A stretch of DNA of 64,000 bases from Persicaria tinctoria (lineage: Eukaryota; Streptophyta; Magnoliopsida; Caryophyllales; Polygonaceae): contig JBANSL010000003.1 in assembly GCA_037127255.1 (NCBI GenBank), forward strand, positions 43,707,314-43,771,313. Direction: 5' to 3'. The translations under genes were made by a program, and so were the position numbers. The notes below the pieces were generated by a model. That model saw only the letters and a list, made by a program, of their open reading frames with translations. It searched no databases and was not told the DNA's origin. The stretch's first letter is position 1; every line of letters starts with the position of its first letter. Of the stretch, positions 18 to 64,000 are shown piece after piece.

Positions 18-1953
18 TAATGTCTCCAAAGTAGCCATATCTTTATGCATATTTTAGTTCCATATTCTATACATTTTGCATATTTCGGGTAGGGAATATG
101 TCGAATTTATGTAGTATATGCTTATTTGTCAGAAATGGAGATCTACATAAGTTTCTGTTTAATATTGCAGAATATGGATTCATTTCGAGAGAAAACCAAG
201 AAGCAAGGACGGAGGCCCAAGTCTACTCGATGTCGACTAACCATAGTCGATCTCGACAACCCATGTCTAGACACCTGCCAGGATCGAGGAGGACCATGTC
301 GGGAAGCTGAAGATGAAGAACCCGACTCCACACCTTCCTCGAGATCGAGTACCCAACTCGATGTCGACAAAGTCCCGAAGCCCATGCCCGGAGTCGAGGA
401 AAGCATGTCCGAGGATGCCGAGGAGAGACTACCCGACCTAGTGTCCGGACACAGAGCAACACACAACTCGATGTCGACGGAACTCCTCGAGGTCGACAAA
501 GCCAAGCCCCTGTCCGAGCATGCCGAGCACACTAGTCGACGAGCCACCTTTACTCGAGATCGAGTAAGGTCCTTGAGAACGACCAAGCCTAGGAGCTATC
601 TCCGAGCCCTGTCGAGGACCAGAACCCCGAGATGCCGAGCCAGCCAAGTCGACGTCAGTTCTACTCGAGATCGAGTAGAATTACTCGAGATCGAGGAAGC
701 TTCCAAAAGACGCGTAACGCGTTGTGAGCTGTCCTACTCGGATTTGGATTCCTTGGAGCCGAAGATTGCCAAGTTCTATCCGATTTTATCAAGATCTATC
801 ATCATGAAGAGAGATTTATCCACTTGAAGACTTTAGATATAATTTCCCTTTTTAGATTTAATTATGTTGTTGCTTTTATTTATCATTAAGCTTTTAGATA
901 TAGTTTTAGATATCGATAGATGTTTCTATCCTTGAGTAGCAAGGTTTAGAAGCCTATAAATAAAGCCCATCGGGCAGATTTCTAGTCATTCAATTTCAGG
1001 GGGAGAAGTAGTAGTACAGAGAGAAAGGGGGGCCGAATGGAGCAAAGGAGCGAGAGCAAGTTGGCTTTGTTCGGTTGTACTTTCTACAGTTTGGATTTAA
1101 TGCAATTAGTTTCTTTTCATTCAAATCAATGTCTGAGGTTGCAATGAAGCGCGAGTAGTCCACCCACTTCTAGGGTTGGGGCGAGCCCGACGATAGCCCT
1201 GCGTGTTTATGGTAAAGATCCGACTTTTATCATGTTTTGAGCATCTGCTACTTGGTATGTGTTTATTACCCATCTAATGGAGGTCCATGCTAACAACTTG
1301 GATTGTAAACATAAAATCGGTAGAGACAATTAGGGTTTCTTGAAAGAGTTGTCTAATTGTTGGAAAAGGCGAAAGCTTAGTCCTTTGATGCAAATTACAT
1401 GATTGTCTGTTTTATTCCTGCCTTATGCATGCTTGGTTATCGTTGTTGCAAACCCCAATCTTGGAAGTCCTTTTCATACAGTTTAGTTCGAAATCCCAAA
1501 GCAATTGCCTTTACTTTATTTTCTTTCGTTTTAGTTTCTGTTTTCCTCGAGATCGACTAGCACTACTCGATCTCGAGTTACTGATCTTCGACCTAGGTCG
1601 TTGTAGCTTCTGTGTGCAGGCAATCGACCAAACCAACCCGACGTCGACGAAGACCTTACTCGATCTCGAGTAGGCTCTTGTCGAGATTGACTAACCCTGT
1701 GCTTGTTGCTGCGTTGTGTTTGACTGTCCGATCTTCTGTCGAGTTGCTGTACTCGAAATCTAGGACCCCTGTTGTCGACTTTTGTGAGATTTATCCGCTG
1801 CCTAGGATCTGCTGACACGCTTCCTCGTGGATCGATCCTGACTTCCCGCTGCTACATCAGGAGGAGGTCTTGTAATTATTTTCAAGGGACGGAATCTGGT
1901 TTGCCTTAGTTTATTTACATTCTATTTTGCATACTCGGTTTCCTCCTACAACA
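18..1953 (+). repeat. 5' LTR of element A
   Basis: Same length as 7024-8959 and nearly identical by eye. It carries two clusters of the TCGA-NN-TCGA motif: 225-695, upstream of the TATA box (U3), and 1545-1760, near the LTR end (U5). A double ACGCGT lies at about 709-721. The start is TAATGTC where the 3' LTR has TGATGTC; the end is TACAACA. Apparent ORFs here (for example 126-827) are made of the TCGA motif read in frame and have no family resemblance, so I do not call them genes. Confidence 0.9.
955..962 (+). promoter_or_regulatory. LTR TATA box (element A, 5' LTR)
   Basis: TATAAATA in the context AGCCTATAAATAAAGCCCAT. The same box and flank are kept in all LTRs of A, B, C and D, at about the middle of each LTR, so it probably marks the U3/R transition. 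The start point would lie some 30 bp downstream. Confidence 0.7.
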
Positions 1954-1956
1954 AAT

Positions 1957-1974
1957 TGGCATCGTTGCCGGGGA
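1957..1974 (+). other. Primer-binding site, tRNA-Asp type (element A)
   Basis: TGGCATCGTTGCCGGGGA lies 3 bp after the LTR. The 3' end of plant tRNA-Asp would pair with TGGCGCCGTTGCCGGGGA, so this copy differs at two positions. Element B (35664) has the perfect version and element C (62614) has one difference. Confidence 0.85.
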
Positions 1975-2036
1975 AGCTATCATTCGCGCCTTAGGTAGTT
2001 GAATCTCACGTCTACTTTGAGTTACTTTTCAGGTGT

Positions 2037-3597
2037 ATGCGTCGTTCTGGTCAAACACCTGAGTTTGGCGCCTTAGAAGAACCAGAGCGTTTCCTACACA
2101 TCCACTCTAAACTTAAAAAGATCATGGCGACCGCAGAAACCCAGGAACAGCTGATACAGAGGCTTACAAGGGAACTGGCCACTAAAGATGTTGCTATCGC
2201 CGCTGAGAAAGCAGCAAGGGAACAAGTAGAAGCTGAGCTTGCCCAGTACCCAACTACTGTAGAGGATTATATGCATCCAACTCTCATCGTGCCTAAATCG
2301 GCGATTCTAATCCCTGAAAACTCTTTTGAAATTCGCACTCAATTTCTTATAGAGCTTAAAAATAATACTTTTTATGGCAAATTTAATGAGTGTCCTCTTG
2401 AACATATTACCAATTTTTCTGACATGTGCCGTACTCTTGCTGAAGGTACAACTCTGGAATATGTCAAGATGAAGGCTTTTCGTTGGTCTCTCGCTGGGCC
2501 TGCACTGAAGTGTCTTGAAGGGCTGAAACCAAGATCCCTCACAACATGGGCCCAAGTAGAGCAAGAGTTTCTGAATAAATTCTTTCCACCTGCCAAGACA
2601 GCACTCCTCCGCCAAAAAATCACCACCTTCAAACAGAAGCCTGGGGAACCGCTGGCAAAGGCATGGGAACGCTACAAGGAACTGCTGCGATCTTGCCCTA
2701 CTCATAGACATCCACCCTACGTCATTCAAGAGATCTTCTTCAACTCTCTTGATCAAGTCACTAAGGACAGGATCAATCAGTACACTCACTATGAGTATCT
2801 GACGATGCCACCAATCGACGCTTGGGTGTGCTAGACAAGCTCACCAATTATGACAACAAATATGGGTCTACTACAAACTATGAGGAGAACTCCTATGCCA
2901 GGCCAGCACCATCTATGCCACTCTATGAGCCAGCAAAGGAGATTGACCCAGATGTCAGGGAGCAGTTCTACAGAGACCAGAATCACAAGCTCGTCAAGCA
3001 AGTCAAATACCTATCTGTCAACCAGCCTTGCATAGAATGCGGATCACAGCGGCACACCACTACTGAGTGCCCACACACTGAGCAAGTCATGATGGCGGAG
3101 ACACACGAGGAGGTAGCCTACGCTAGGGGTCCCAATCGCTACATGGTATACATCAAAGGTTCTATCAACCACAGTGGAACCAAGGTCCCCCTAGGAACCC
3201 CCCACCCTACAGAGCTCCAGGACAACTAGAAAGGGATCAAAAGAAGGATGATCTGCAGCTCATCCTTGAGGAGATGCGTCGGAATCAGGGCACCATCAAC
3301 AACCAGTTCCAGAACATCACTACAAAATTTGGAGAACTGGATATCTGAAAAGGAGGAATAGAGACCCAGATGGGTCAAATCGCTGCACAGATCCCACGAC
3401 CATCCGGACAGCTCCCTGGGCAAACAGAACCAAATCCTAAGGGGAAGATCGGACACGTCGCAGCTATCAAACTCAGAAGTGGGCATCAATTACATGAGCC
3501 AGAGGTCCGGAAACATCAAGACAAGGCAGAGCAGCAACTCGACATAGAGCAGACTCAACTCGATCTCGAGGAGACTGTACTCGATGGCTCGACCTAG
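2037..3597 (+). pseudogene. gag: Athila-like gag, frameshifted (element A)
   Basis: Encodes the capsid/nucleocapsid precursor that would package element RNA. The first frame (2037-2834) starts MRRSGQTPEF and holds the Retrotrans_gag core, recognisable by WLEGL-like, LTTWAQVEQEF and NKFFPPAKTALLRQKI motifs and AWERYKELLRSCP. A one-base loss in a G run near 2824 shifts the frame to 2822-3229, which carries a CX2CX4HX4C zinc knuckle (about 3028-3070). A two-base gain near 3147 and an in-frame stop near 3348 break it again before the last piece (3370-3597). The start matches elements B and C just after the PBS. In frame 0 it would originally have run straight into the protease ORF. Confidence 0.85.
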
Positions 3598-3605
3598 ACC
3601 AACAT

Positions 3606-4727
3606 TTGCTCGACACAGACCAGAAGCTGAGCTCGGACTCCACTGCACAACCAGACAACTCGAGGTCGATAAGACAACTCGAGATCGAGGAGCCCCTGGT
3701 CGATATCGAGAAGAATCTGGCCGAGGTCGACGACTCTGCAACACCTTCGACGTCTGATCTGGCTCCGAAGCAGAAAAAGCCACTGCCTTTTCCTTCAAAA
3801 GCACAAAAAGATCCCACTGCAGGTAGGTTTAACAAATTTGTTAATATGCTACAAGAACTGAATGTTTCTATTCCTTTTACAGAAGCCCTGCAAGAGATGC
3901 CTGGATATGTCAAATTTCTAAAGGAAATTCTAAGAAAGAAGCGATCCATCTTAGAGATCGCAGGCAAATGCAAAGTACTCCACTTCCCTGAAAAGAGACC
4001 TGACCCTGGTAAGTTTTCTGTTACTGTGGGTTTTGGACAATACAAATATGAGTCTCTGTGTGATTTAGGAGCAAGTGTGAGCATCATGCCTTTATCAATC
4101 TGGCGGAAGGTCAAGATAGGATGGATAGAGCATGTGGATGCCAAATTATACATGGCAAATAATACAGTGGTCATCCCTACAGGTATAGTTGAGAATGTCC
4201 CCGTCCAGGTTGGTAAATTCTTTGTTCCAACATATTTCCTTATTATAGACTATGTTGAAGATCCTACTAGCCCTATTATTCTTGGTAGACCATTCTTAGC
4301 TACTGCAAATGCCAGAATTAGTGTCAAGAATCGATCGCTCACTTTCACCATTGGAGATGAAGTCTTAGATTTCTCTTTTGGCCCTGCAAAAGAGGAAATT
4401 TCATGGTTAGAGGTAAAAAGCATCAGCAATCACCGGACCAATCAATCAGCGGAAGAAAGCACCATCACTGTCCTCGAGATCGAACAAGCGTCCTCGATCT
4501 CGACAACCCTTCTACTCGATCTCGACAAGCCTTTGTCGACGTCGACTTCCTCTGCTGAGCCAGTGACTTGCCCAGAGCCTAAGTATGGGGTCCCTGTACT
4601 CGAGGTCGACCAGCAGTACTCGACATCGACTAGCCCCAAGCCCGAAGATTTCTGTTTTGGGTCCGAAAAGGTAAGTTCAGGTATGAATCCTACCCCCCCC
4701 CCCTCAGTCCATAAAGAAATTTATTAA
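3606..4727 (+). CDS. Athila-like aspartic protease ORF with TCGA-motif inserts (element A)
   Basis: 373 codons in the gag frame. The retropepsin core has LCDLGASVSIMPL (Asp about residue 153; DLGA in place of the usual DTGA/DSGA, common in Athila) and the flap/helix motif PIILGRPFLAT about 70 residues later. It would cleave the gag-pro precursor. Two low-complexity acidic stretches rich in LEIE, LDLD and VDIE (residues about 10-45 and 280-345) are simply the TCGA-NN-TCGA DNA motif read in frame. There is no reverse transcriptase after it. The first methionine is not a natural start; the ORF is probably a broken part of a gag-pro fusion. Confidence 0.75.
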   Translation: MLDTDQKLSSDSTAQPDNSRSIRQLEIEEPLVDIEKNLAEVDDSATPSTSDLAPKQKKPLPFPSKAQKDPTAGRFNKFVNMLQELNVSIPFTEALQEMPGYVKFLKEILRKKRSILEIAGKCKVLHFPEKRPDPGKFSVTVGFGQYKYESLCDLGASVSIMPLSIWRKVKIGWIEHVDAKLYMANNTVVIPTGIVENVPVQVGKFFVPTYFLIIDYVEDPTSPIILGRPFLATANARISVKNRSLTFTIGDEVLDFSFGPAKEEISWLEVKSISNHRTNQSAEESTITVLEIEQASSISTTLLLDLDKPLSTSTSSAEPVTCPEPKYGVPVLEVDQQYSTSTSPKPEDFCFGSEKVSSGMNPTPPPSVHKEIY

Positions 4728-5060
4728 TAATTTAAGGGGAGGTAAGGCCCCGCGGCGAGAGAATCTGCGAAAATTAAGAGCTGAAAGGAAGAAGAAGAAA
4801 GAGAAAGAAGATGATGCAAGCAACCACATGTCAACTGAGCTTGCATACTACAATCAGGACCTAGATGATGCAGGAGAAGGGCCAAGCAAGAGCGGGCCCC
4901 ACACTAATGGTCCTTGAGCGCAAACGAAGAAGTAGACCTAGCGACTCTAAAATCTAGAACATGTATATAAAAGTTTATGAATTTTGGGACTTTTGAACTT
5001 TTTAGTTTTGGTTTTGGTTTTTGGTTTTGATTTTTGGTTTTGGTTTTTTAAGTTTAGAAT
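4728..5060 (+). other. Lysine/glutamate-rich coding remnant after protease (element A)
   Basis: After the protease stop, the frame near 4732-4917 reads LRGGKAPRRENLRKLRAE, then a KKKKEKED tract and an acidic tail ending at a TGA near 4915. A run of nine C residues at 4692-4700 just upstream may have caused a frameshift. I do not recognise the peptide. From 4920 to 5060 the DNA is T-rich with GGTTTTTGGTTTT repeats and holds nothing further that I can name. Confidence 0.4.
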
Positions 5061-5209
5061 ACTTCATGTGGATAGTCTTGTTTTTTTTTGTGCAATCTAA
5101 CACTTTTAAGTCGGCAAGCATATAAGGATCGCGAAAAGTGGAATAAAGAAGCCTCTGAAAAACAGTCAGGATCGACGAAGGCCAAGTCGACGACGACAAG
5201 GAGGAGCAG

Positions 5210-5345
5210 TCCAGACACTCCTCGATATCGAGTAGGCCAACTCGATATCGACAAGCCCAGAAGCTCCTAGACTTCAGAATCCACTGGACGCAGAAAAGCT
5301 ACTCGAGATCGAGTTGCACTACTCGAGATCGACAAAGATTTTTTA
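5210..5345 (+). repeat. Internal TCGA-NN-TCGA cluster (element A)
   Basis: Several motif copies lie in non-coding DNA between the protease and the 3' LTR. Two have TA centres (TCGATATCGA near 5223 and 5240) and two have GA centres (near 5303 and 5322). They show that the motif is not tied to coding sequence. Confidence 0.8.
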
Positions 5346-5437
5346 CTCGACATACCTGTTCTGCCATCCTCGATGTGTTATCATGTGAGTTCCTTCCTTT
5401 ACTCTTGTTTTTATTTAATACAGTGGGGACACTTATA

Positions 5438-5460
5438 TTTTAAGTATGGGGTGGGGGAAA
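5438..5460 (+). promoter_or_regulatory. Internal polypurine-tract-like motif (element A)
   Basis: AAGTATGGGGTGGGGGAAAA repeats the sequence of the terminal polypurine tract (AAGTATGGGGTG, 7009-7023) about 1.6 kb upstream of the 3' LTR. Element B has the equivalent at about 39409. It could serve as a second plus-strand primer or be a relic of an old LTR boundary. Confidence 0.5.
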
Positions 5461-7008
5461 AGCTCATTATCATTATTATATGTTTTAGTCTTGTTCTTGG
5501 TTTTACATGGTGAAATTTTAATTTCTATGTTATGCATTCATGTTTAAATTTTATGCATTTTAATCTTTTGTCATACTTTAGTCTTGTTTTTAGTTAAATA
5601 AAAAAAATATAGAAAATGTCGAAAAAAAAAATATGCATGTTTAATTTTTGCATTGTTTTAGTTTTTTATACCATAACTTAGATGTCCTATGATGATGAAT
5701 AATGATTGACTTGATCATGTAAATCCTATGGCATATTTGGAAGGTTTAGCCTAAGTCCTCGAAATTGTTTTTATGTGGATTGTGAACTTGTAATGAAATT
5801 GAGCACATATGATCCTAAGCTAAAGGTTAAAATCCAACAAAAATTATCCTAGTGAGAATTTTGGCCTTATAGGGAGAACATTAAAAATCCCTCTGCTTTC
5901 TTGAGTGTATTTACTCTTCCTATGCATCTCTAAATGTTGTGATAGTTATTCAAAGTCAATGCATTTATATGTTGATGTTAATGAGAATTAAATGATGGAG
6001 GCACCTTTTAAGCCAATTTTATCCTCTCTTTACCTACCCTGCATTATCCATGCTTGAAGCCAGAATATTAGCCTGAGACTTTTATTGTAAACTCCACAAA
6101 ATTATCCTTAGCCAAATTGAGCCTGACCCCCATTTGAGAATTAAGACTTAGAGTTGGTTGGAAGAATGATTTGTGGAAAGAATAAGCTTATGTTTCATTT
6201 CAAACAAGAAGGATTTTTTGAGTTTATTGAGATATGGGTTGGTTTCATATTTTTATCTTGCTATACACATTATGTAAAAGGATTTTTGGCTCACCTTATA
6301 AATGCACCATTAGTCTTTATTTTCGTTTCAAAAAAAAATCGAAAAAAAAAGAAAAAAAAATATATATGTTAGTGAATAAAGTGCATTAGCCAAATTTACC
6401 TTATTTCGTTCATTATTCGCAAGATACATACTTTGGAGAGATTGAGGAAGTTTGCAAGGTTACATACTTCATTTAGATAAATTGGAGAGTTTGGTTGATG
6501 CATATGATTGAGAGTTATGGTTTGGTTGAGTTGTGTTTGAGATTTAGGAGTCTTGATTCCCGAATTTTAGTAAGCACCACATGGCCAAATAATTTCATAC
6601 CCTTATATTTCTTACCAAGCCCCATTACAACCCTACCGAATTGAATCTTCTTTGAAGACTTCTATTGAGCGAAGTCCTCTTGATAATTCTTGTTGCATTT
6701 TCATAATTGGTTGCGAAGTGGATTTATATTTAAATTGCAATGTTTATGAGATTGTATATGGAATTAAGTTGAGAGTTGATATACATGGCCTAAACACATT
6801 GAGAGCTGAGTGTAAACACATTATCCCTGTGAGGTTGGATTTATATTGCCTACGCCTATGGATCGCTCATATATGTGTGATGACGTTAAATTCACTTGTC
6901 TTACATTGCTACTACTTAAGATGTTGCTTTTGACAAAAGGCGAAGACTCGAAGGATGTGTTGTAGGTCTTGGTTATTGTTTAGTTATTGCTTGAGGACAA
7001 GCAAGTCT
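5461..7008 (+). other. Non-coding 3' internal region (element A)
   Basis: About 1.5 kb of AT-rich sequence without a convincing gene. Athila elements often carry an env-like ORF here, but I see only short ORFs (for example 6652-6933) with no recognisable features. Element C rejoins homology to this region at its position 63602. Confidence 0.6.
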
Positions 7009-7023
7009 AAGTATGGGGTGATT
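7009..7023 (+). promoter_or_regulatory. Polypurine tract (element A)
   Basis: AAGTATGGGGTGATT directly precedes the 3' LTR start TGATGTC. It is preceded by TTGAGGACAAGCAAG, which is conserved before the 3' LTR of element B. Confidence 0.75.
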
Positions 7024-8959
7024 TGATGTCTCCAAAGTAGCCATGTCTTTATGCATATTTTAGTTCCATATTCTATACATTTTGCATATTTCGGGTAGGG
7101 AATATGTCTAATTTATGTAGTATATGCTTATTTGTCAGAAATGGAGATCTACATAAGTTTCTGTTTAATATTGCAGAATATGGATTCATTTCGAGAGAAA
7201 ACCAAGAAGCAAGGACGGAGGCCCAAGTCTACTCGATGTCGACTAACCATAGTCGATCTCGACAACCCATGTCTAGACACCTGCCAGGATCGAGGAGGAC
7301 CATGTCGAGAAGCTGAAGATGAAGAACCCGACTCCACACCTTCCTCGAGATCGAGTACCCAACTCGATGTCGACAAAGTCCCGAAGCCCATGCCCGGAGT
7401 CGAGGAAAGCATGTCCGAGGATGCCGAGGAGAGACTACCCGACCTAGTGTCCGGACACAGAGCAACACACAACTCGATGTCGACGAAACTCCTCGAGGTC
7501 GACAAAGCCAAGCCCATGTCCGAGCATGCCGAGCACACTAGTCGACGAGCCACCTTTACTCGAGATCGAGTAAGGTCCTCGAGATCGACCAAGCCTAGGA
7601 GCCATCTCCGAGCCCTGTCGAGGACCAGCAACCCGAGATGCCGAGCCAGTCAAGTCGACGTCAGTTCTACTCGAGATCGAGTAGAATCACTCGAGATCGA
7701 GGAAGCTTCCAGAAGACGCGTAACGCGTTGTGAGCTGTCCTACTCGGATTTGGATTCCTTGGAGCCAAAGATTGCCGAGTTCTATCCGATTTTATCAAGA
7801 CCTATCATCATGAAGAGAGATTTATCCACTTGAAGACTTTAGATATAATTTCCCTTTTTAGATTTAATTATGTTGTTGCTTTTATTTACCATTAAGCTTT
7901 TAGATATAGTTTTAGATATAGATAGATGTTTCTATCCTTGAGTAGCAAGGTTTAGAAGCCTATAAATAAAGCCCATCGGGCTGATTTCTAGTCATTCAAT
8001 TTCAGGGGGAGAAGTAGTAGTAGAGAGAGAAAGGGAGGCCGAGTGGAGCAAAGGAGCGAGAGCAAGTTGGCTTTGTTCGGCTGTACTTTCTACAGTTTGG
8101 ATTTAATGCAATTAGTTTCTTTTCATTCAAATCTATGTTTGAGGTTGCAATGAAGCGCGAGTAGTCCACCCACTTCTAGGGTTGGGGCGAGCCCGACGAT
8201 AGCCCTGCGTGTTTAAGGTAAAGATCGGACTTTTATCATGTTTTGAGCATCTGCTACTTGGTATGTGTTTATTACCCATCTAATGGAGGTCCATGCTAAC
8301 AACTTGGATTGTAAACATAACATCGGTAGAGACAATTAGGGTTTCTTGAAAGAGTTGTCTAATTGTTGGAAAAGGCGAAAGCTTAGTCCTTTGATGCAAT
8401 TTACATAATTGTCTGTTTTATTCCTGCCTTATGCATGCTTGGTTATCGTTGTTGCAAACCCCAATCTTGGAAGTCCTTTTCATACAGTTTAGTTCAAAAT
8501 CCCAAAGCAATTGCCTTTACTTTATTTTCTTTCGTTTTAGTTTCTATTTTCCTCGAGATCGACTAGAAATACTCGATCTCGAGTTACTGATCTTCGACCC
8601 AGGTCGATGTAGCTTCTGTGTGCATGCAATCGACCAAACCAACCCGACGTCGACGAAGACCTTACTCGATCTCGAGTAGGCTTTTGTCGAGATCGACTAA
8701 CCCTGTGCTTGCTGCTGCGCTGTGTTCGACTGTCCGATCTTCTATCGAGTTGTTGTACTCGAGATCTAGGACCCCTGTTGTCGACTTCTGTGAGATTTAT
8801 CCGCTGCCTAGGATCCGCTAACACGCTTCCTCGTGGATCGATCCTGACTTCCCACTGCTACATCAGGAGGAGGTCTTGTAATTATTTGCAAGGGACGGAA
8901 TCTGGTTTGCCTTAGATTATTTACATTCTTTTTTGCATACTCGATTTCCTCCTACAATA
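7024..8959 (+). repeat. 3' LTR of element A
   Basis: Mate of 18-1953. It starts with intact TGATGTC and ends TACAATA where the 5' LTR has TACAACA. It has the same two TCGA clusters (about 7231-7700 and 8551-8765). Confidence 0.9.
7961..7968 (+). promoter_or_regulatory. LTR TATA box (element A, 3' LTR)
   Basis: TATAAATA in the same context as at 955. In a 3' LTR it could drive read-out transcription into the TNP2 fragment region, on the opposite strand to that gene. Confidence 0.6.
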
Positions 8960-9598: not shown

Positions 9599-9600
<2 letters not shown>

Positions 9601-25239: not shown

Positions 25240-25811
25240 AAGACAAGTACAGTCCACCTATATCTCGTCCATAAAGGTGTAAAACTTCAATTCGGTCATT
25301 AATGACCCAACTGTTTTAGCCACGACCTTTGCAACGGACAAGTACGTGGCTATGCGTATACTCCCTTTTCGGCAGGCAACGAAGACCTTTGTCGTCGCTA
25401 AAATTGTATCTATTAGCTACGGATAGACCATCGAATAATTGTTGAGGCGCCCATACTTCGATGGTAGCCACAACCACTATGTTTGTCGCTTATATTGGCC
25501 ATGGAATAATGATTCTTGGCTAGCTTCGTCGACAAATATCCGCACGTAGAGGGCACGTGCTCCAAGTCGTTGCTAAATAGCCACGATTCCAGCGACATTA
25601 ATATAATTCATCGCTATTAGCAACGAACTCAGTCACGAATTCATGCCATTGGAAAATGGCCACGACCCCAGCCACGAACGCCATTCTTCGATGCATGTTT
25701 AGCTTCGACTCCATATTTTCGTCGCTATTGTCGTGGCTACTAGCTACAACTTTGGCAACAATAAATTTTGGTTGCTAAAATCCGTTGCTATTTGACAGTT
25801 TTTTAGTAGTG
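25240..25811 (-). mobile_element. CACTA transposon end (family 2)
   Basis: On the minus strand the terminus is CACTACTAAAAAACTGTCAA (25811 inward). It is followed by many TAGC-ACGA type words (AGCAACGA, AGCCACGA) in both orientations over more than 500 bp, as in CACTA subterminal regions. The other end and transposase are not seen. It directly abuts LTR D with TAA between. Confidence 0.65.
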
Positions 25812-25814
25812 TAA

Positions 25815-27604
25815 TGTTGATAGGAGGAAATTGAGAATTGCAATAAAATATAAATAAAGTACAGCAAACCAGATTTCGTCCCTTGTAAATAATTACAAGA
25901 CTCCCTCCCGATGCAGTAGTGGGAAGTCAAGATCGATCCACGAGGAAGCGTGTCTGCGGATCCTAGGCAGCGGTGGAATCTCACGAACAGAAGTCGACTA
26001 CAGATGCTCGACCTCGAGTAAAGTTACTCGACAGAAGATCGGGCAAGTCGAACAAAGCAGCAGCAACTCTCGGTGGTTACTCGATATCGAGTAAATCTCC
26101 TCGATATCAAGGAAGGCTCTTGTCGATCTCGGGTACCTACACAGGAGAAGCTACGACGATCTTCGTCGATCGAATATCAGTACTCGATATCGACCAGATT
26201 TTGTCGATATCGAAGAAACAAAAACTTAAAAACGCAATAAAGAAAGAACACAACTTGTGGGATTCTCGAAATAAACTTTACGAAAGGAAACTTCAGGATC
26301 GGGGTTTGCAACAACAATAACCAAGCATGCATAAGGCAAGAATAAAACAAATAATCATGTAAATTGCATCGAAGGACCAAACTTTCGCCTTTTCCAACAA
26401 TTAGATAACTCTTTCAAGAAACCCTAATTGTATCTACTGATTTTATGTTTACAATCCAAGTTGTTAGCATGGACATCCATTAGATGGGTAATAAACGTAT
26501 AACAAGTAGTAGATGCTCAAAACATGATAAAAGTCGGATCTTTACCTCAAACATGCAGGGCTATCGTTGGGCTCACCCCAACCCTAGAAGTAGGTGGACT
26601 ACTCGCGCCTCATTGCAATCGCAGACATTGATTGAAAAGAAATAACTTGCATTAAACCAAAATGAAGAAAGTACAAACCGAACAAAGCCAGATCACTTTC
26701 GCTCCTTTGCTCCACTCGGCCTCTCTTTCTCTCTCTACTACTACTTCTCCTACTGAAATTGAATTGTCTAGAAATCAGCCCCTAAGGCCTTATTTATAGG
26801 CTTCTAATCCTTGCTAATCAATGATAGAAATCTCTATCTATATCTAAAGATAAAACATTAATAAAGGGAATATTTATCATAAAAGGGAAATATATCTAAA
26901 AGACTAAAATATCTTCATGTGGATAAATCTTCTTCTCCATGGATGGATCTTGATAGAACTTGGATAGAATCGGACTCCCTTTGGCTCCAAGCAATCTAAA
27001 ACCGCGTCGGACAGCTCACCGCGTAACGCGGTCCACGATAGCGCTCCTCAATATCGAGTAAACTACTTGATATCGAGTAACTGTGTCGTCGACTTGGCTG
27101 GCTAGGCATCTCGAGTAGCTGGTTCTTGATCTGGCTCGGAGATGCTCTTCTGGTCTTGGCGATATCGAGTAACCTACTCGATATCGAGGAAGTGGTGCTC
27201 GACATGTCTTCATCTTCGGCTTCTCGACTAGGTGTGGCTTCCTCGACTTCGGGCATTGGCTTCAGGGTGTTTGTCGATATCAAGTAAACTACTTGATATC
27301 GAGTAGAGCTCCAGATTCGGGTTGCTTTGTCTTCAGCTCCTCGATCAGCTTGTCCTCGACCAGTCCTCTGCTTCAACATTCTTGTCGATATCGAGTAGCT
27401 TTTAGCTTCCGTTTTTACTTCTTGGTTTTGTCCCGGAATGGCTCCATATTCTGTAATATTAAACCAAAACTTACGTAGATCTCCATTTCTTGCAAATAAG
27501 CGTATACTACATAAATTCAACATATTCTCACCCCGACATATGCAAAGTGTATAGAATACGGAGCTAAAATGTGCATTTCAACATGGCTATTTTAGTGGAC
27601 ATCA
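25815..27604 (-). mobile_element. Element D: solo Athila-like LTR
   Basis: On the minus strand it runs from TGATGTCCACTAAAATAGCC (27604) to CCTCCTATCAACA (25815), 1790 bp, aligning along its length with the LTRs of A and C. No internal region lies on either side, so it is a solo LTR. The 5-bp flanks differ (TGTAA left, ATTGA right), so no target duplication survives. Its TCGA-NN-TCGA motifs nearly all have TA centres, unlike A, B and C. Confidence 0.8.
26791..26798 (-). promoter_or_regulatory. LTR TATA box (solo LTR D)
   Basis: TATAAATA on the minus strand in the conserved AGCCTATAAATAAGGCC context. Confidence 0.6.
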
Positions 27605-35660: not shown

Positions 35661-35663
35661 AAT

Positions 35664-35681
35664 TGGCGCCGTTGCCGGGGA
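35664..35681 (+). other. Primer-binding site, tRNA-Asp type (element B)
   Basis: TGGCGCCGTTGCCGGGGA, the perfect complement of a plant tRNA-Asp 3' end, 3 bp after the LTR. Confidence 0.9.
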
Positions 35682-35743
35682 AGCTATCATTCGCGCCTTA
35701 GGTAGTCAGTTCTCACGTTCTCTTTGAGTTACTTTGCAGGTGT

Positions 35744-37153: not shown

Positions 37154-37480
37154 CTGCAAGAGCCAGAGGTCGGAAAGCAGTAGAACAACGAAGAACAGCA
37201 AGTCGACATCGACGACACTGTAGTCGATCTCGAGGAGGGCCTCGTCGATCTCGAGGAGAAACTTCAAAGGCCCTCGTCTGCACTACACAACAACTCGACT
37301 TCACCCAATCTAGTCGAGATCGACAAGGACCTAGTCGATGTCGAGGAGCCCCTAGTCGACGTAGAGAAAGCTGCCGCACCTCCGACATCTGTTCTGGCTC
37401 CAAATCAGAAAAAGAAGCTGCCTTTCCCCACAAAATCTCCAAAGGACCCAGTAGAAAAGAAATATCAGCGCTTCATCAAG
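37154..37480 (+). repeat. TCGA-motif spacer between gag and protease (element B)
   Basis: The same frame as gag, with one further stop. It encodes VDIDDTVVDLEEGLVDLEEK and similar acidic repeats made of TCGA-NN-TCGA, then joins the protease at KKKLPFPTKSPK. Confidence 0.7.
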
Positions 37481-39100
37481 ATGCTTCAGAAACTCAACGT
37501 CACCATCCCCTTCACAGAAGCTCTTAATGAAATGCCATCTTATGTCAAGTTCCTGAAAGAGATTCTGAGCAAAAAGCGATCGATGGCTGAAATCACAGAG
37601 GAATGCAGCCATTTGGACATACTAGAGAAGAGGCCGGATCCAGGTAAGTTTGCTATAACCATTGGATTTGGTCCATACAAAATTAATGCTTTATGTGATC
37701 TTGGAGCTAGTGTGAGTATAATGCCTTTAACAATTTGGTCCAAGATTAAGATAGGTGCCCTAGAGCCTGTGGATGCTAGACTTTACATGGCCAACAACAC
37801 AGTGGTCATTCCAACAGGCATGGTGGAAAATGTGCCAGTACAAGTAGGTAAATTCTTTGTCCTTGCTGATTTCCTAGTTGTTGATATGCAAGAAGATCCT
37901 GCTTGTCCAATTATTCTAGGGAGACCCTTCTTGGCGACGGTGGATGCCAACATAAGCGTAAAGAAAGGAGTGCTCACCTTCAACATCAGCGATGAGGTAA
38001 TTGAGTATTCCTTTAATAAAACTGAAAGGCATACATGTCCAATGGAAGAGGTCAAATCTATCTCAGCTGGCTACATCACCTGCGGGGAACCCAAGGTCAG
38101 AAATATGACCCCTAAGGAGCTAGAAAAGAGGGACATGGAGGCCCAGGTGGAGGAGATCATGGCAATCCTAAAGGAGGATGCAGAAAATCCAATCGACACG
38201 AACCAAGGTACGTCGTTAGGGATTAATTATTTTTCGGATGCCTTGACAGGAACCAAGTATGGGGTCAAGATTGACCAAGGCTCCTCGACATCGAGGACCC
38301 TAATCGACCTCGACCAAAAACAGAAACCTTCACCAGCACCAGCATCGACGAGCAACAACACTGAAGTGCCAGGCTACTCGATCTCGAGTAGGGTACTCGA
38401 GATTGTCCACCCCTCTGCTGTCTCGGCTTCGCCGTCCTCGACGCTGAAGACTCCAGGATCTATAACCTCATCGAGATCGACTACGCTAGTCGAGATCGAC
38501 CAAGCTCCTCGGGCACCTGATTCCTCGACGCTGACTCCACCAGACGAACCAGACTCCTCGATCTCGACCATGCTTGTCGAGATCGACCATCACCCGGCTA
38601 CACCAGCCCCTATTTCCTCGACGCTGAAGCCACCAGGAGCAGAAAGCTACTCGAGATCGAGTAGTCTACTCGATGTCGACCAGCGCTCGACTTCACCAGC
38701 TTCTGCATCCTCGAGTAGACCACCACCAGAAACTGCAGACTCGTCGAGATCGACTAGCCCTAGTCGAGATCGACCAAACACCGTGGTTCCTGATTCCGTC
38801 TCTGCGAAGGTAAGCCAAGGTATGGATCTTTCTACTCCTATTTCCATTAAAGATCTATCTATACATGGGAGAGGTTTGCCTTGGTATGTGCGCTTATGTA
38901 GGATTTCCAATGATGAGCCCAAGGAATATGAAGTTGGAGAAAAGCTCTATGTCTCTAAATCAAAGGATCATTGGTTCCCCAACAAATTCACCAAGAAGCG
39001 GATGGGACCTTTCGTGGTGAACAAGATCCATTATGGAGGACTACAGCTGATGGACAAGAATGGAGTCTTATTTGAGGCCCAAGCTACATGGGCCCTATAG
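37481..39100 (+). CDS. Athila-like protease with TCGA-motif domain and integrase-C-terminus-like tail (element B)
   Basis: 539 codons in the gag frame. Retropepsin motifs are LCDLGASVSIMPL (Asp about residue 73) and PIILGRPFLATV (about 145). Residues about 265-440 are a low-complexity Ser/Glu/Asp region (LVEIDHH, YSISSRVLEIV, SRSSSLLDVD) generated by the TCGA motif in three frames. The last about 75 residues (EYEVGEKLYVSKSKDHWFPN, then MGPFVVNKI and LQLMDKNG) resemble the C-terminal domain of Ty3 integrases (GPF-V and L-D-G). The RT, RNase H and integrase core would then be deleted between. Family placement of the tail is inference. Confidence 0.7.
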   Translation: MLQKLNVTIPFTEALNEMPSYVKFLKEILSKKRSMAEITEECSHLDILEKRPDPGKFAITIGFGPYKINALCDLGASVSIMPLTIWSKIKIGALEPVDARLYMANNTVVIPTGMVENVPVQVGKFFVLADFLVVDMQEDPACPIILGRPFLATVDANISVKKGVLTFNISDEVIEYSFNKTERHTCPMEEVKSISAGYITCGEPKVRNMTPKELEKRDMEAQVEEIMAILKEDAENPIDTNQGTSLGINYFSDALTGTKYGVKIDQGSSTSRTLIDLDQKQKPSPAPASTSNNTEVPGYSISSRVLEIVHPSAVSASPSSTLKTPGSITSSRSTTLVEIDQAPRAPDSSTLTPPDEPDSSISTMLVEIDHHPATPAPISSTLKPPGAESYSRSSSLLDVDQRSTSPASASSSRPPPETADSSRSTSPSRDRPNTVVPDSVSAKVSQGMDLSTPISIKDLSIHGRGLPWYVRLCRISNDEPKEYEVGEKLYVSKSKDHWFPNKFTKKRMGPFVVNKIHYGGLQLMDKNGVLFEAQATWAL

Positions 39101-40585
39101 ATGCCACCATGAGCTACATGGAAAGTCGGCCTAGCCACTATAAAATCTACAGCTTGTACATAGACTTTTTTTTAGGACATTTTTTGGGACATTGTTTTTT
39201 GCTTGTTTTTGGTTTTGAACATTTTTTGGTTTTTATTTTTTGTGGGTATATGTCTTCCATACTTTTCAGGTCCATGGATAGAACCAAGCAATATTCATAC
39301 TCGGCCCAAGAGGTGCTTCCATTCGAAATTTAGAAGCCCTGCACACCAGTCTAGTGAGTTTCTTTCTTTACCCTTGTTTTTTTTATACAGTGAGGACACT
39401 GTAATGTTTAAGTATGGGGTGGAGGAAGGGCTTACTTTATGCATATTTGCTATATTGTGACATTATATGTGCATTATTTCTTTGAATTGCTACATGGTTA
39501 TTTTGGAATGCATTATTGATGTATGTGCCTATATGCATGTTTTCCAAAATTTGAGAAAAATGACCCCCATTGAATTTTTTTGATAAATGTCATGGAAGCT
39601 TATATAGAACTAAATGATGCAAAATTGGATTCATTAGAGATATAGCATGAAATTGCCTAGTAAAGGGAAGTCACAATAAAGTGCATATTTTATTGAAAAC
39701 CATGAAAGGAGGTAAAATTTGAAGTTGTTTTTGACATGTTACATGATAAGATGATGGAGGACTTTATATTTCCATATAATGCTCACTGTATAATCCTAGC
39801 CTTACCCATGCTTATACATCACAAAAGCATATTATGCCTTATTTCATATATTGCTCCGCATGATCTAAATATTGCCATTCTTTACTTTATCCGGGGATTA
39901 TGTTGAGAATGATGTTACATTATGGAGATTATCATATGGTGTTTGTGTTGTTAATTATCATTATTGGAGTTTGGAAGGAAATTGTTTGAAATATATGGAA
40001 AATTTATCGAGTGAGAGAAAATCCAATCACCTCAGGAGATAAAGGTAGATTGACCCTGCTCTCTGAGATAATAGTTTGGAGAGATGGGACACATTGTGAG
40101 GAGTCCAAAGCACTAAGTATCCGGGGCCATTCATGAGACCCATGTTTGCGACTCGCGAGAAGGCAGTGCTGAGGTTAGAGAGGTAAAAGCATTATTATGA
40201 ATAGAAGCAATATGAAAGGTGATGAATCTTACGGAGAAGGAATGTGGAAGTTCAATTTGGGAAGTACTCCATTTCCCCGAATTATTAACACCACATTGCC
40301 AAAAAATGCCCACCTTTTAGCCTTTTATCAATCTACTCCTTATTTGAGTTTAAATTAAAGTCCTCTTGATTATTAATGCTTTGTCACGAATGAATGTTTT
40401 GCATAACCCTCCTTTTATGAGTAAATGTTGTTTTTAATTGCACATGCATAAATTTGTGACACTAGTACCTTTTCGATGATGGTAATTTATTGCAGGGACA
40501 TATAACAATGAATCTGATATGTTGAGAGTTTTGATTTCTTCCCCTGAATGACAAATAAAGGTATTGCTTGAGGACAAGCAAGCTT
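39101..40585 (+). other. Non-coding 3' internal region (element B)
   Basis: No gene recognised. An internal AAGTATGGGGTGGAGGAAGG motif at about 39409-39428 repeats the terminal polypurine tract. The rest is AT-rich, as in element A. Confidence 0.6.
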
Positions 40586-40599
40586 AAGTATGGGGTGTT
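40586..40599 (+). promoter_or_regulatory. Polypurine tract (element B)
   Basis: AAGTATGGGGTGTT directly before the 3' LTR, preceded by TTGAGGACAAGCAAGC as in A. Confidence 0.75.
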
Positions 40600-42686
40600 T
40601 GTTGTGAGCTGAATCTGCCGTGTTCTACAGTAACTTTTATATCAATTTCTGCATACATTTCATTCATTTGGGCTAAGATAGTACATAATCTATGTAGCTT
40701 ATGTTTATTTGCCAAATGATGGAATCTACACCAATTTCTGTTTAAATTCGCAGAATTCGAGGCAAATTACAGCAATTCTAAGGAAGGTCAGAAAAGCTCG
40801 GAAAACAACTACAGAAGTCCAAGAATCAGAGAGTACAGAACCAGGACAAACGGAGCTAAGCCAGAGCTACTCTATGTCGAGTACACCTTACTCGATCTCG
40901 AGTAGAGAGTCCGAGCAGACTTGGTCGACAAAGCCTGATCAAGTCCGAGGCAACCTGACTCCGGAAGACAACTCGATCTCGACAAGACCTAGTCGAGATC
41001 GACTACACCTCAGCGCCACACCCGGAGTCGACGAGAAGAGGAGTTGATCGAGGAGCCGAGGACGAAGACGCCGAGCACATCTCTACTCGATCTCGATGAG
41101 ACCTTGTCGAGATCGACGAGCCACCCTGCACCAGTCCGAGACCATGCCGAGGAGGAGTCCTCGACATCACCAAAGAGCCGTCTTCGACCACACTCCTAGT
41201 CGATCTCGAGGAACCCTAGTCGAGATCGACGACACCCAGGAGCCCAGATCCGAGCCTGTCGAGGACCAGCTAGCCGAGACGACGAGCCGAGCCAGCCGAC
41301 CACAATCCTACTCGAGATCGACTAGACCTTTGTCGAGATCGAGTAGACCTCCAGAGCCGTGTTACTCGGGTTGACCAATTTTACTCGGCTTGGAGTTACT
41401 TGGGCACGAAAGAAGTCGAGAAGCCCGAGATCTATCCTACATCTATCATCATCTATCTATGGAAGAAAGATCTATCAACATGAAGACATATTACCTAGTT
41501 TAGATATAGTTTTCTTTTAAAGATTTATTTCCCTTAAGAATTTTATTTATCTTTAAGCTTGAAGTAGATATAGATAGAAGATTCTATCCTTGATAAGCAA
41601 GGATTAGAAAGCTATAAATAAAGCCCATGGGGCTGAGTTTTAATCATTCAATTACAGTGAGAGACAAGTAGTTCCAAAGAGAAGTTTTAGGAATTCTAAG
41701 GTTTTTAAGGTTTTGGCATTCAACGAAAGTTGATTGCCGGGATTGTAAAGGCTTTGAATATAGTTTAATGCAATTTAGTTTCTTTTTAACAATCAATGTC
41801 TGCGATTGCGATGAGGCGTGAGTAGTCCACCCACTTCTGGGGCTGGGGTGAGCCCGACGGTGGCCACGTGAGGTGATGCGGAAAAGGTCAGATCTTGTTA
41901 TGCAATTCGTCTTCTATCCCTATAAGCATGATTCTTTTGCGAGAGTTGAAGGTGATCCTTGTTTGTGTTATTGAAGCGAAAGTGATCTTAATGCAACTTG
42001 GATTAATTATGTGAAAAGGGTTAGTAACAATTAGGGTTTATGCGAAAGCCTCTATATGCCTATTTGTTAGTAACGAAAGTTATTTTGATGGAAAGCACGA
42101 TCTTTTATGCCTTTATGTGTTACTTTGCATGGTTATCGTTGTGGTGTTGATACCCTAGCTTTGGAAGTCTTTTATATATTGAATTTATTTCGTCGGAAAT
42201 CTGAGTTTTTGGTTCGAAATTTGCAATTTAAGTTTTCTGTCTTTCCAGTCGAAATAGAGGAGAAGCTTGTCGATCTCGAGTAGGATCCTTGTCGAGATCG
42301 AGTAGAACTAGTCTAGGTCGAGTTGAGTTTCTTTTCTGTTGTCGATTTTTCAGTTTCTGTTTTCTGTTGTCGATCTCGAGTAGGCTTAGTCGAGATCGAG
42401 TACGTCTGTTGTCTTGCTTTGTTCTTTACTTTCTTTCGCTATTTTCTGTCTTTGCTTTTGTTTCTGTTTTGCTTTGTCTTTTCTGCTTTCTGTTTCTGTC
42501 TTTCTGCTGCTTGTTTGTGAGATCTGTTGCTACCTGAGAACTGCTGACGTGCTTCATCGTGGATTCGATCCTGATAACCTTCTACTACAACGGGAGGAAG
42601 TCTTGTATTTATTTGTTGAGACAGGGAAGTCAGTCTGATCTTTATTCTATATTTATTTCATACTTGACCATCCTCCTACAACAACA
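40600..42686 (+). repeat. 3' LTR of element B
   Basis: Mate of 33573-35660, starting TGTTGTGAGCTGAATC and ending CCTACAACAACA. The TATA box is at 41613-41620. Confidence 0.9.
41613..41620 (+). promoter_or_regulatory. LTR TATA box (element B, 3' LTR)
   Basis: TATAAATA in the same context as the 5' LTR. Confidence 0.6.
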
Positions 42687-55077: not shown

Positions 55078-55169
<92 letters not shown>

Positions 55170-55339
55170 TATATATATATAATATAACGGAAGTATATAA
55201 TAAGATAAAATAATATTCGGACAAATAAGATAGGTTTTGTATTTTATCAACTATTAACGCTCCAAGGCCTTTGACACAAACATCCTGTCAAAGCCCTTGA
55301 AACATTTATTCCATTTTCCATCAAGGGAGGGAGTTATCA
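54254..55339 (-). repeat. 5' LTR of the copia element
   Basis: 1086 bp. It is longer than its mate through a (TA)n expansion of about 90 bp at 55080-55170 and about 64 bp retained near 54307-54370. Confidence 0.9.
55079..55187. repeat. (TA)n expansion within one copia LTR
   Basis: A long TA run, interrupted once by GCAT, where the other LTR has only GCATATATATAATATAAC. Confidence 0.9.
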
Positions 55340-55344
55340 CAAAC
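55340..55344. repeat. Target-site duplication CAAAC (copia, right)
   Basis: Matches 46453-46457. Confidence 0.9.
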
Positions 55345-60725: not shown

Positions 60726-62610
60726 TGATGTCTCTAAAGTAGTCATGTCTTTATGCATATTTTAATTCCATATTCTTTACATTTTACATATTTCGGGTTG
60801 GGAATATGTCAGATTTATGTAGTTTATGTTAATTTGTCAGAAATGGAGATCTACATAAGTTTCTGTTTAATTTGCAGAATATGGAACCATTTTGGGAGGA
60901 AATCAAGAAGCAAGAACCGAAGCTCAAAGTTACTCGACATCGACAAGCCTTAGCCAATCTCGACGAATCACGCCTAGACACACCCTAGTCGAAGAGCACA
61001 TGACGAGGAGCGAAAGACGAGCCAACCCGGAGCCAAGAAGGGATTATCCGGATCTAAGGAGAAATTACCCGGGGTCGAGGAGAGACTACCCGACCATGCC
61101 CGAACATCTTCCTCGAGATCGAGGACTTTTACCCGAGATCGACAAGGCTGAGAGCCCACACCCGAGCATGTCGAGAACATCTACCCGATGCTACCGAGAA
61201 GACCTAGTCGACGAGCCACCTTTACTCGAGATCGAGTAAGGGTACTCGAGATCGACGACTCCCAGGAGCCCTTTCCGAGCCAGTCAAGCACCAGCAACCC
61301 GAGACGCCGAGCCAGCCAGTCGACCAACACTTCTACTCGAGATCGAGTAGCCTTACTCGAGATCGAGGAAGCCTCTAGAAGCCGCGTAACGCGTTTTGAT
61401 CTATTCTACTCGGATTGGGATTCCTTGGAGCCGAAGGTTGCATAGTTCTATCCGATCTATCAAGATACATCATGGAAGAAGAAGATTTATCCACTTAAGA
61501 CTTTTAGATATATTTCCCTTATTTAGATTTAATTATGTTGTTGCTTTTATTTATCTTTAATGCTTTTAGATATAGATAGATATTTCTATCCTTGAGTAGC
61601 AAGGATTAGAAGCCTATAAATAAAGCCCATGGGGCTGATTTCTATTCATTCCAATTCAGAAAGTAGGAGAAGTAGTAGTAGAGAGAGAAAGGGAGGCCGA
61701 GTGGAGCAAATGAGTAAGAGCAAGTTGGCTTTGTTCGGTTGTACTTCCTTCAGTTTGATTTAATGCAAGTTTCTTTTCATATATCAATGTCTGAGGTTGC
61801 GATGAAGCGCGAGTAGTTCACCCACTTCTAGGGTTGGGGCGAGCCCGACGATAGCCATGCGTGTTTGAGGTAAAGATCCGACCTTTATCAAATTTTGAGC
61901 ATCTGCTACTTGTTATGTGGTTATTACCCATCTAATGGAGGTCCATGCTAACAACTTGGATTGTAAACATAAAATCGGTAGAGACAATTAGGGTTTCTTG
62001 AAAAAGTTGTCTAATTGTTGGAAAAGACGAAAGCTTAGTCCTTTGATGTGATTCACATGATTATCTGTTTATTTCTTGCCTTATGCACGTTTGGTTATCG
62101 TTGTTGCAAACCCCAATCTTGGAAGTCTTTTACATACAATTTAGTTCGAAATCCCAAAGCACTTGTCTTTACTTTATTTTTGTTTTAGTTTTCTGTCTTC
62201 TTCGAGGTCGAACCAGCACTCCTCGATCTCGAGTTACTAATTCTCGATCCAGCATCGCCGTAGCTTCTGTGTGCAGGTGATCGACAAGAGCCAACCTGAC
62301 GTCGACAAATCTACTCGATCTCGAGTAAACCCTTGTCGAGATCGACCAAAACCGCCGGGAGTTGCTGATGTGCTGTTCGACCGTCCGATCGTCTGTCGAG
62401 TAACTGTACTCGAGATCTAGGACCCCTGTTGTCGACTTCTGTGAGATTTCTCCGCTGCCTAGGATCCGCTGACACGCTTCGTCGGGGATCGATCCTGACT
62501 TCCCGCTGCTACATTAGGAGGAGGTCTTGTAATTATTTGCAAGGGACGGAATCTGGTTTGCTGTGATTTATTTATATTTAAATTTGCATTCTCGATTTCC
62601 TCCTACAACA
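60726..62610 (+). repeat. 5' LTR of element C
   Basis: 1885 bp, TGATGTCTCTAAAG...TCCTACAACA. TCGA motifs lie at about 60938-61370 and 62205-62415. It is more diverged from A's LTRs than those are from each other. Confidence 0.9.
61615..61622 (+). promoter_or_regulatory. LTR TATA box (element C)
   Basis: TATAAATA followed by AAGCCCATGGGGCT. Confidence 0.65.
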
Positions 62611-62613
62611 AAT

Positions 62614-62631
62614 TGGCACCGTTGCCGGGGA
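62614..62631 (+). other. Primer-binding site, tRNA-Asp type (element C)
   Basis: TGGCACCGTTGCCGGGGA, one transition from the perfect site, 3 bp after the LTR. Confidence 0.85.
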
Positions 62632-62692
62632 AGCTATCATTCGCGCCTTAGGTAGTGAAATATCACATCTACTTTGAGTTACTTTACAGGTG

Positions 62693-63600
62693 TATGCGCC
62701 GTTCTGGTCAACCACCTGAGTTTGACGGCTTAGACGAACCAGGGCGCCTTCTACACATCAGAGCTAAACTACAAAGAGCCATGGATACTACTATCGCCGT
62801 TGAAAGGGCAGCGAGGGAACAAGAAGCTGGGCTTGCCCAGTTCCCAACTACTGCAGAGGATTATATGCACCCAACTCTCGTCGTGCCTGAATCGGCGATT
62901 CTAATCCCTGATAACTCTTTTGAAATTCGCACTCAATTTCTTATAGAGCTTAAAAATAATGCTTTTTATGGCAAATTTAATGAGTGTCCTCTTGAACATA
63001 TTACCAATTTTTTTTGACATGTGTCGTACTCTTGCTGAAGGTACAACTTTGGAATATGTCAAGATGAAAGATTTTCGATGGTCTCTCGCTGGGTCTGCAC
63101 TGAAGTGGCTCGAAGGGCTGAAACCAAGATCACTCACAACATGGGCCCAAGTAGAGCAAGAATTTTTTAATAAATTCTTCCCACCCGCCCAAACAGCACT
63201 TCTCCGCCAGAAAATCACCGTCTTCAAACAAAAGCCTGGGGAACTACTGGCAAAGGCATGGGAACGCTACAAAGAACTGCTGCGATCTTGCCCTACTCAT
63301 GGACAGCCACCCTACGTCATTCAGGAGATTTCTTCAACTCTCTTGATCAAGTCACTAAGGACATGATCAATCAGTACACTCGCTATGAGTATCTGACGAT
63401 GCCACCAATTGACGCCTGGGGTGTGCTAGACAAGCTCACCAATTATGACAACAAATATGGGTCTACTGCAAACTATGAGGAGAACTCTTATGCCAGGCCA
63501 GCAACACCTATGCCAGCAAAGGAGATTGACCCAGATGTCAGGGAGCAGTTCTACAGAGACCAGAATCGCAAGCTCCTCAAGCAAGTTAAATATCTGTCTG
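62693..63600 (+). pseudogene. gag: Athila-like gag, frameshifted and truncated (element C)
   Basis: Starts MRRSGQPPEFDGLDEPGR. An extra T in a T run at about 63008-63015 shifts the frame. The conserved core (LTTWAQVEQEF, NKFFPPAQTALLRQKI) is read in the second frame. A base loss near 63330 returns to the first frame. It ends at the deletion junction after LLKQVKYLS, before the zinc knuckle. No protease follows. Confidence 0.85.
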
Positions 63601-64000
63601 ACCCCCATTTGGGAATTAAGACTTAGAGTTAGTTGAAATAATGGTTTGTGGAAGGAATGAGCTTATGTTGGACTTCAAGAAAGAAGGATTTTCGGAATTT
63701 ATTGAGATATGTGTTGGTTTTATCATGCTATACATATTATGTAAAAGGATTTTTAGCTCACCCTATAAATGCACCATTAGTTTTATTTTATTTTCGTTAA
63801 AAAAAAAATCCGAAAAAAGAAAGAAAAAGTATATATGTATATAAATAAAGTGCATGAGCCAAATTTACCTTATTTCTTTCATTATTTCGCAAGATACATA
63901 CTTTGGAGAGGTTGAGGAAGTTTGAAATGTTACATAATTCATTGAGATAAATTGGAGAGTTTGGTTGATGCATATGATTGAGAGTTATGGTTTGGTTGTG
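63601..64000 (+). other. Element C 3' internal region
   Basis: Matches A from about 6125 onward (GACCCCCATTTG.GAATTAAG). Non-coding as in A; continues past the window. Confidence 0.7.

Follow-up and report, generated by a model that had tools for sequence, protein, structure and literature searches.

We analysed a window of 64,000 nucleotides from Persicaria tinctoria (contig JBANSL010000003.1), whose genome assembly comprises 1.68 Gb in 221 contigs; "the window" means this whole stretch. It contained four related long terminal repeat (LTR) elements, A to D, and their LTRs carried dense arrays of one short palindromic site, TCGANNTCGA. The sites stood in pairs about two helical turns apart, on both sides of the TATA box in A, C and D, and their half-sites hardly changed between copies. 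These results suggested that the arrays are binding sites, kept by selection, for a dimeric DNA-binding protein that would keep the LTR promoter active or unsilenced. We put the probability of this reading at roughly 0.7.

Enrichment of the site in the LTR elements

Exact matches to TCGANNTCGA numbered 97 in the window. All of them lay within A–D, 67 in LTRs and 30 in internal DNA (14 in A and 16 in C). An earlier sequence-only reading of this stretch had described the motif as dense in all Athila-like copies, and the counts bore this out more strongly than it had been put. The control that it had proposed gave a mean of 0.06–0.10 sites in shuffled LTRs (200 dinucleotide shuffles per region), compared with 6–14 observed per LTR. 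No TCGANNTCGA was found in three flanking stretches of the window, 40.4 kb in total. The estimate of about fifteen motifs per LTR was too high, and the extent given for the motif, 18-64000, took in three long site-free stretches. The region 5210-5345, offered as an example of dense non-coding DNA, did hold four sites.

The enrichment extended to the whole genome. TCGANNTCGA occurred 617,165 times, compared with 43,496 for the reversed pattern. A better control is the form with half-sites set 3 bp apart, which retains the half-sites and alters the spacer alone. It occurred 29,630 times, near its own reversed control (26,979). The difference between the 2-bp and the 3-bp spacer counted in favour of binding sites. 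Among the first 100 genome sites listed, all on C1, 74 fell in six clusters of 7–17 sites and 26 lay elsewhere, so not every site in the genome belongs to such an element. Five of the six clusters aligned with the window LTRs along most of their length at about 70–80%, and the sixth (L040) in short stretches only.

The motif had also been reported from the gag-pro regions. This held for the linkers on either side of the protease, which carried 26 sites in the protease frames, but the gag frames and the protease domain had none. The sites used three coding frames, as had been noticed before, with 14, 10 and 2 sites in frames 1, 0 and 2. In C, the linker units encoded related peptides, Ser-rich or of the form (L/V/I)(D/E)(I/L/V)(D/E). 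Three of the ten A linker sites lined up with C sites, which indicated gain and loss of sites in the protease linkers.

Pairing and symmetry of the sites

Two features were absent from the sequence-only reading, namely the spacing of the sites in pairs and the extent of the palindrome. In the window, successive sites were separated by steps of 19–22 bp and then by a longer gap. The same spacing was observed for the first 100 listed C1 sites, where 30 of 99 successive distances were 19–22 bp and none was 7–18 or 23–62 bp. Genome-wide, pairs with a gap of 9–12 bp numbered 230,240 (57,560 per gap value), compared with 84 for the reversed pattern. Pairs with a gap of 13–30 bp numbered 20,109 (1,117 per gap value; reversed pattern, 910) and were thus about 50 times rarer per gap value. 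Three or four sites could also follow one another at this step, as at 37203-37245 and 4474-4536. Since 20–21 bp corresponds to two turns of B-DNA, the members of a pair lie on the same face of the helix. In coding DNA, pair members 19 or 20 bp apart fell in different frames. This meant that the spacing of the DNA was kept, and not a peptide.

The conserved sequence was longer than the core. T at position −3 and A at position +12 were held at 120–129 of 142 distinct pairs. This applied equally to the inner and the outer side, which makes every single site a near-palindrome in its own right. The core was usually flanked by C or G in these pairs. The resulting 16-bp near-palindrome, TNSTCGANNTCGASNA, was matched by 404,376 of the 617,165 genome sites (65.5%), and its reversed pattern occurred 612 times. 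Of 276 distinct sites in the window and in subfamily A, 253 had GA, TC, TG or TA as the centre and none had GC. GC centres do exist elsewhere in the genome. A different repeat with a GC centre was seen at G000:C1:974689-985022, where TCGAGCTCGA pairs 220 bp apart occurred three times at a 5,052-bp step.

Constraint on the half-sites

A probe from the U5 region of A gave 5,501 candidates, of which 40 were scored and 30 were cut as loci. After exclusion of the window copies L009 and L013, 28 copies remained and were aligned to the A 3' LTR, which has 14 sites. The letters of the half-sites were changed in 3.8% of cases (bootstrap by copy, 1.8–6.6%), and the two central letters in 26.4%. Changes were therefore about seven times rarer in the half-sites than at the centre. 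The spacers inside pairs (36.5%), the stretches between pairs (27.1%) and other upstream positions (28.1%) all varied freely, and LTR positions 1000-1480 were changed at 11.2%. Shifted controls gave 19.3% or more in all 34 cases where eight or more windows were retained. Using the A 3' LTR as reference gives a slight bias toward intact sites; with every row as reference in turn, the values were 0.7–6.1% per half-site letter and 25–26% for the centre. CpG letters in sites were changed at 5.0% and CpG elsewhere at 14.0%. The half-site T and A were changed at 2.6%, compared with the 5.0% of half-site CpG letters. The sites were thus under constraint, with fixed half-sites and a free centre and spacers. 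The sequence-only reading had named descent without conservation above the neighbouring sequence as what would speak against it, and this alignment of many members contradicted that.

The comparison of A with C was consistent with these data. Their LTRs were 54% identical overall, with 70–73% in half-site columns and 45% in the flanks, and 7–10 of 12–14 site positions were in common. Within single elements, the 5' LTR differed from the 3' LTR at 2 of 56 and 0 of 52 site CpG letters and at 9 of 143 and 6 of 139 other CpG letters, which are too few changes to judge decay.

Position of the arrays around the TATA box

The LTRs of A–D were 1.8–2.1 kb long, and the 5' and 3' LTRs were 97.2% identical in A and 97.9% in C. 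A, C and D had CTATAAATAA in common, at LTR positions 939, 1015 and 890, with one array on each side. The upstream arrays of A lay about 260–730 bp before this TATA box. An open frame of 233 amino acids (aa) spanned the upstream arrays of both A LTRs (126-827 and 7132-7833). It may be incidental, since none of the forward frames of the motif contains a stop. The primer-binding sites of A and C may correspond to tRNA-Asp.

Coding content and relatives of the elements

The Retrotrans_gag domain (PF03732) was found above the Pfam cut-off in A, C and D. A retropepsin-like domain was found in A and C with E of about 0.001–0.002, below the cut-off. No recognisable polymerase was present in A and C, the two elements checked directly for reverse transcriptase (RT). 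Six relatives bearing RT, RNase H or integrase were compared by tblastn. In A and C, their matches were confined to the gag-protease part of the internal DNA, and the control locus L044 was matched by the same six along most of their length. The gag was of the Ty3/gypsy type, and the retropepsin resembled that of RT-bearing plant elements. No comparison gave a relative named Athila, and A and C offered no RT, RNase H or integrase that would place them in the Athila clade. "Athila-like" is the label of the sequence-only reading.

The protease frame of C had 470 homologues, and at least 14 of the 120 listed carried RVT_1. In the genome, the protease domain gave 19,566 first-look candidates, and all 150 that were scored were at least 96% identical. 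The longest open frame around the 150 scored matches was 1,172 aa, compared with up to 2,048 aa in RT-bearing relatives. From these identities and frame lengths, A and C belong to an abundant, young family of gag-protease elements, whose coding copies multiplied widely without a polymerase. Head-to-tail tandem elements were noticed as well. At G000:C1:1796393-1821483, site patterns recurred every ~6.67 kb, and seven same-strand pairs among the 150 listed matches were separated by 6.2–7.4 kb, close to the combined length of one LTR and the internal DNA in A (7,006).

At its C-terminal end, the C frame was 66% identical over 89 residues to the end of P0001 and weakly similar to the end of P0015 (E 0.002), which we take to resemble an integrase tail. 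P0001 (443 aa, from an ENA record of 2,890 bp) had the same protease-linker-tail plan as C, with SIST- and VDID-like linker peptides. This suggested that the sites may be present in another species. The C gag had two homologues, 82% and 52% identical, along about half its length. None of 16 candidates for the C-terminal region of C was a relative, and seven pattern matches in viral contigs included none.

Features of the window are listed in Table 1. Outside A–D, a direct repeat (9247-11241 and 18232-20252, 98.4%, ~9 kb apart) was observed, and a minus-strand frame at 8917-9579, overlapping its first copy, matched Transpos_assoc. Tandem repeats with units of 160 bp and 134 bp, three copies each, were located at 21238-22332. 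Copia-type gag and RVT_2 frames flanked by 97–99% direct repeats were located at 44291-56210, with no TCGANNTCGA.

Table 1. Coordinates of the LTR elements, site arrays and associated features in the window
Feature	Position	Strand	Remarks
Element A (LTR, gag, protease, LTR)	17..8958	+	5-bp AGTAC at 12-16 and 8959-8963
A 5' LTR, 12 sites	17..1951	+	
A 5' LTR, array upstream of TATA	227..694	+	TATA placed from 3' LTR
A 5' LTR, array downstream of TATA	1547..1669	+	
A primer-binding site	1957..1974	+	read from sequence; differs from that of C by two letters
A gag open segment (PF03732), 0 sites	1995..2831	+	
A open segment with protease-like domain	3498..4724	+	10 sites, in linkers either side of domain
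A run of four consecutive sites	4474..4545	+	steps 20, 22, 20 bp
A, two site pairs past protease frame	5222..5332	+	
A 3' LTR, 14 sites	7023..8958	+	arrays 7233-7700 and 8553-8696
A 3' LTR TATA box (CTATAAATAA)	7961..7966	+	between two site arrays
Element B, single LTR	25811..27611	-	6 exact sites; 15 allowing up to one mismatch
Element C, whole	33572..42686	+	
C 5' LTR, 12 sites	33572..35660	+	arrays 33866-34316 and 35244-35373
C primer-binding site TGGCGCCGTTGCCGGGGA	35664..35681	+	read from sequence
C gag open segment (PF03732), 0 sites	35702..37150	+	
C open segment with protease-like domain	37184..39097	+	16 sites in linkers; end weakly integrase-end-like
C linker array past protease, 11 sites	38285..38773	+	unit starts 93, 93, 87, 93, 93 bp apart
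C 3' LTR, 13 sites	40599..42686	+	arrays 40892-41342 and 42270-42399
C 3' LTR TATA box (CTATAAATAA)	41613..41618	+	between two arrays; second match, TATATA, at LTR position 1575
D 5' LTR, 10 sites	60726..62610	+	arrays 60934-61366 and 62202-62345; element D continues beyond window
D LTR TATA box (CTATAAATAA)	61615..61620	+	

Possible functions of the arrays

The sequence-only reading had offered four options for the motif. Constrained half-sites, a free centre, dyad symmetry and two-turn pairing favoured the one in which a dimeric protein binds it. A cooperatively bound homodimer would require just such features: half-sites that do not vary, a centre that is free in sequence but constant in length, outer T/A contacts, two-turn pairing and a position at the promoter. 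We propose that a homodimeric DNA-binding protein is the likely reader of TNSTCGANNTCGASNA, and that its binding to paired sites would be cooperative, along a single face of the helix. The arrays around the TATA box and in the protein linkers may recruit this predicted protein, which would raise transcription or protect the LTR from being closed by DNA methylation. Its source may be the host or a helper element.

Several points weigh against this proposal. No binding protein was found, and the frames searched in A and C showed no candidate beyond gag and protease. RT-bearing relatives were found with P0002, and of the 30 gag-pol loci cut from them, which covered gag-pol and not the LTRs, 29 had no sites. 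The exception, L064, had four sites near one end. The gap classes counted genome-wide were 9–12 and 13–30 bp. The motifs themselves assist the alignment on which the constraint was measured, although an alignment artefact cannot account for the freedom of the centre between fixed half-sites. In addition, some centres were complementary, as RNA pairing predicts. This was the case at two pairs downstream of the TATA box (46 of 58 rows of the subfamily A alignment) and in 16 of 29 pairs of five other LTRs on C1, where 9.9 were expected from shuffles.

Complementary centres would fit an action of the paired sites in RNA, in which motifs 10 nt apart form genomic-RNA stem-loops for dimerisation, packaging or small-RNA production. 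RNA kissing or dimerisation had been among the earlier options. Support for it was inconsistent between sets of pairs, and was seen at the pairs downstream of the TATA box and at three of the four U3 pairs of element C. Seven of nine folded pair segments also gave z < −2, several with stems of at least 10 bp, and among the 142 pooled pairs complementarity modestly exceeded that of shuffles, both at the two bases of the centre and at the innermost two of the spacer. However, copies of a self-complementary TCGA motif can always fold, and the folding may be a by-product. Such support was lacking in the U3 of subfamily A, where five pairs were complementary in only 9 of 114 rows. In subfamily A as a whole, 39 of 133 pairs were complementary and 43.8 were expected; in the window, the values were 12 of 34 and 8.8 (p 0.12). 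Bases just outside the pair were less complementary than shuffled ones (44 of 142 compared with 57.2), and the symmetry between the inner and the outer side of each site goes beyond what a hairpin needs. We consider an action in RNA unlikely.

Dense symmetric CpG pairs might also attract or spread host DNA methylation as a reservoir, without a dedicated protein. The observed/expected ratio of CpG was 0.99–1.07 in the LTRs and 0.31–0.74 for pieces of internal DNA from A and C, and Sirevirus repeats are likewise described as forming CpG islands (PMC2829016). This option, also raised in the sequence-only reading, fitted poorly by itself, because the 3-bp form has the same half-site CpGs and stayed near its control level. 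In addition, the half-site T and A were at least as constrained as the CpG, T(−3) and A(+12) were kept although they are not CpG, and the element would be unlikely to profit from drawing methylation. We regard it as improbable. Even less credit is due to descent alone, in which a site-rich founder underwent recent amplification without selection on its sites. The many young copies agree with it, and within A and within C each 5' LTR site was also present in the 3' LTR; but it conflicts with the sevenfold difference between half-sites and centre and with the sharing of site positions by A and C, whose LTRs have an overall identity of 54%. A repeat of the Gag-Pro polyprotein copied to other places is hardly credible. 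The C linker units give related peptides and start at distances that are all multiples of three, but 67 of the 97 sites lie in LTRs and pair members use different frames. It was rejected on these grounds, in agreement with the sequence-only reading. The last of the earlier options, a self-propagating insert, was not supported in the LTRs, since the positions were largely common to the diverged A and C. A TFIIIC B-box and a heat-shock element were also considered and set aside.

Comparison with known systems

Arrays of sites for a host protein inside a Ty3/gypsy element are known from Drosophila gypsy, which carries a Su(Hw) array. The likeness is limited, since that site is a zinc-finger site located in the leader, acts as an insulator and belongs to an animal element. 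Among plant elements of the Ty3/gypsy type, no such array turned up in the titles and abstract openings searched. No description of TCGANNTCGA arrays was found there either, which does not establish their absence from print.

The closest arrangement was that of Sireviruses, which are Ty1/copia elements. Their LTRs are described as carrying 8–32 palindromic CpG boxes per element upstream of the TATA box, with extra internal copies, and the authors call them Sirevirus specific (PMC2829016). The sites found here resemble these repeated motif (RM) boxes in being palindromic, in containing CpG, in clustering upstream of the LTR TATA at high copy (10–14 per LTR in A, C and D) and in having extra internal copies. 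We also count as a likeness that the box sequence varies between Sirevirus families while the symmetry stays (PMC2829016). However, a CGG-CCG core is present in all but one of the elements listed there, and our sites have TCGA-NN-TCGA instead; the exception among the 13 listed Sireviruses is Tnd-1 (PMC2829016). The gag of our elements is PF03732 and not copia-type, so they are not Sireviruses. The two-turn pairs and the second LTR array downstream of the TATA are also different, as neither appears in the parts of the Sirevirus text drawn on here, and the extra internal copies lie mostly upstream of ENV in Sireviruses and around the protease in our elements (PMC2829016).

A second parallel is VANC21, which is reported to bind dense motif arrays in VANDAL21 DNA transposons, with target regions that diverge fast (PMC5735166). 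VANC causes loss of DNA methylation (PMC5735166; PMC10398659). The short dense motif within one transposon family and the fast divergence of the target regions are similar here (PMC5735166). In contrast, the VANC21 motif is YAGTATTAY, in a single orientation and mainly in non-coding DNA of a DNA transposon (PMC5735166). The binding protein is known and anti-silencing was shown for VANC, and for our arrays anti-silencing is inferred (PMC5735166; PMC10398659). The coding content resembles that of the pol-less Athila families of Arabidopsis, which have LTRs and gag and are thought to multiply with the enzymes of other Athila families (PMC2410132). Our elements differ from these by their site arrays, which are absent from the description of those families consulted here, and some of those families carry env, which was not seen in ours (PMC2410132). 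Taken together, the arrays may work like those of Sireviruses and VANC targets, with another site, another type of element, strict pairing and coding copies as new features.

Implications for the element family

A more specific form of the binding-site proposal can be outlined tentatively, although we think it rather doubtful as a whole. The arrays would be the DNA half of an anti-silencing system that parallels VANC but arose independently. A trans-acting dimer from a helper or the host would read the paired palindromes, the Gag-Pro linkers would have been reshaped to hold sites, and the fast-diverging spacers would escape small-RNA homology. If this is true, the roughly 600,000 sites would form a large sponge for that protein. 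The abundance of the sites and their constraint mean that their protein could be isolated directly, with a paired-site probe as bait. Should it turn out to activate the element or to counter its silencing, this would help to explain how a family without a polymerase of its own filled the genome.

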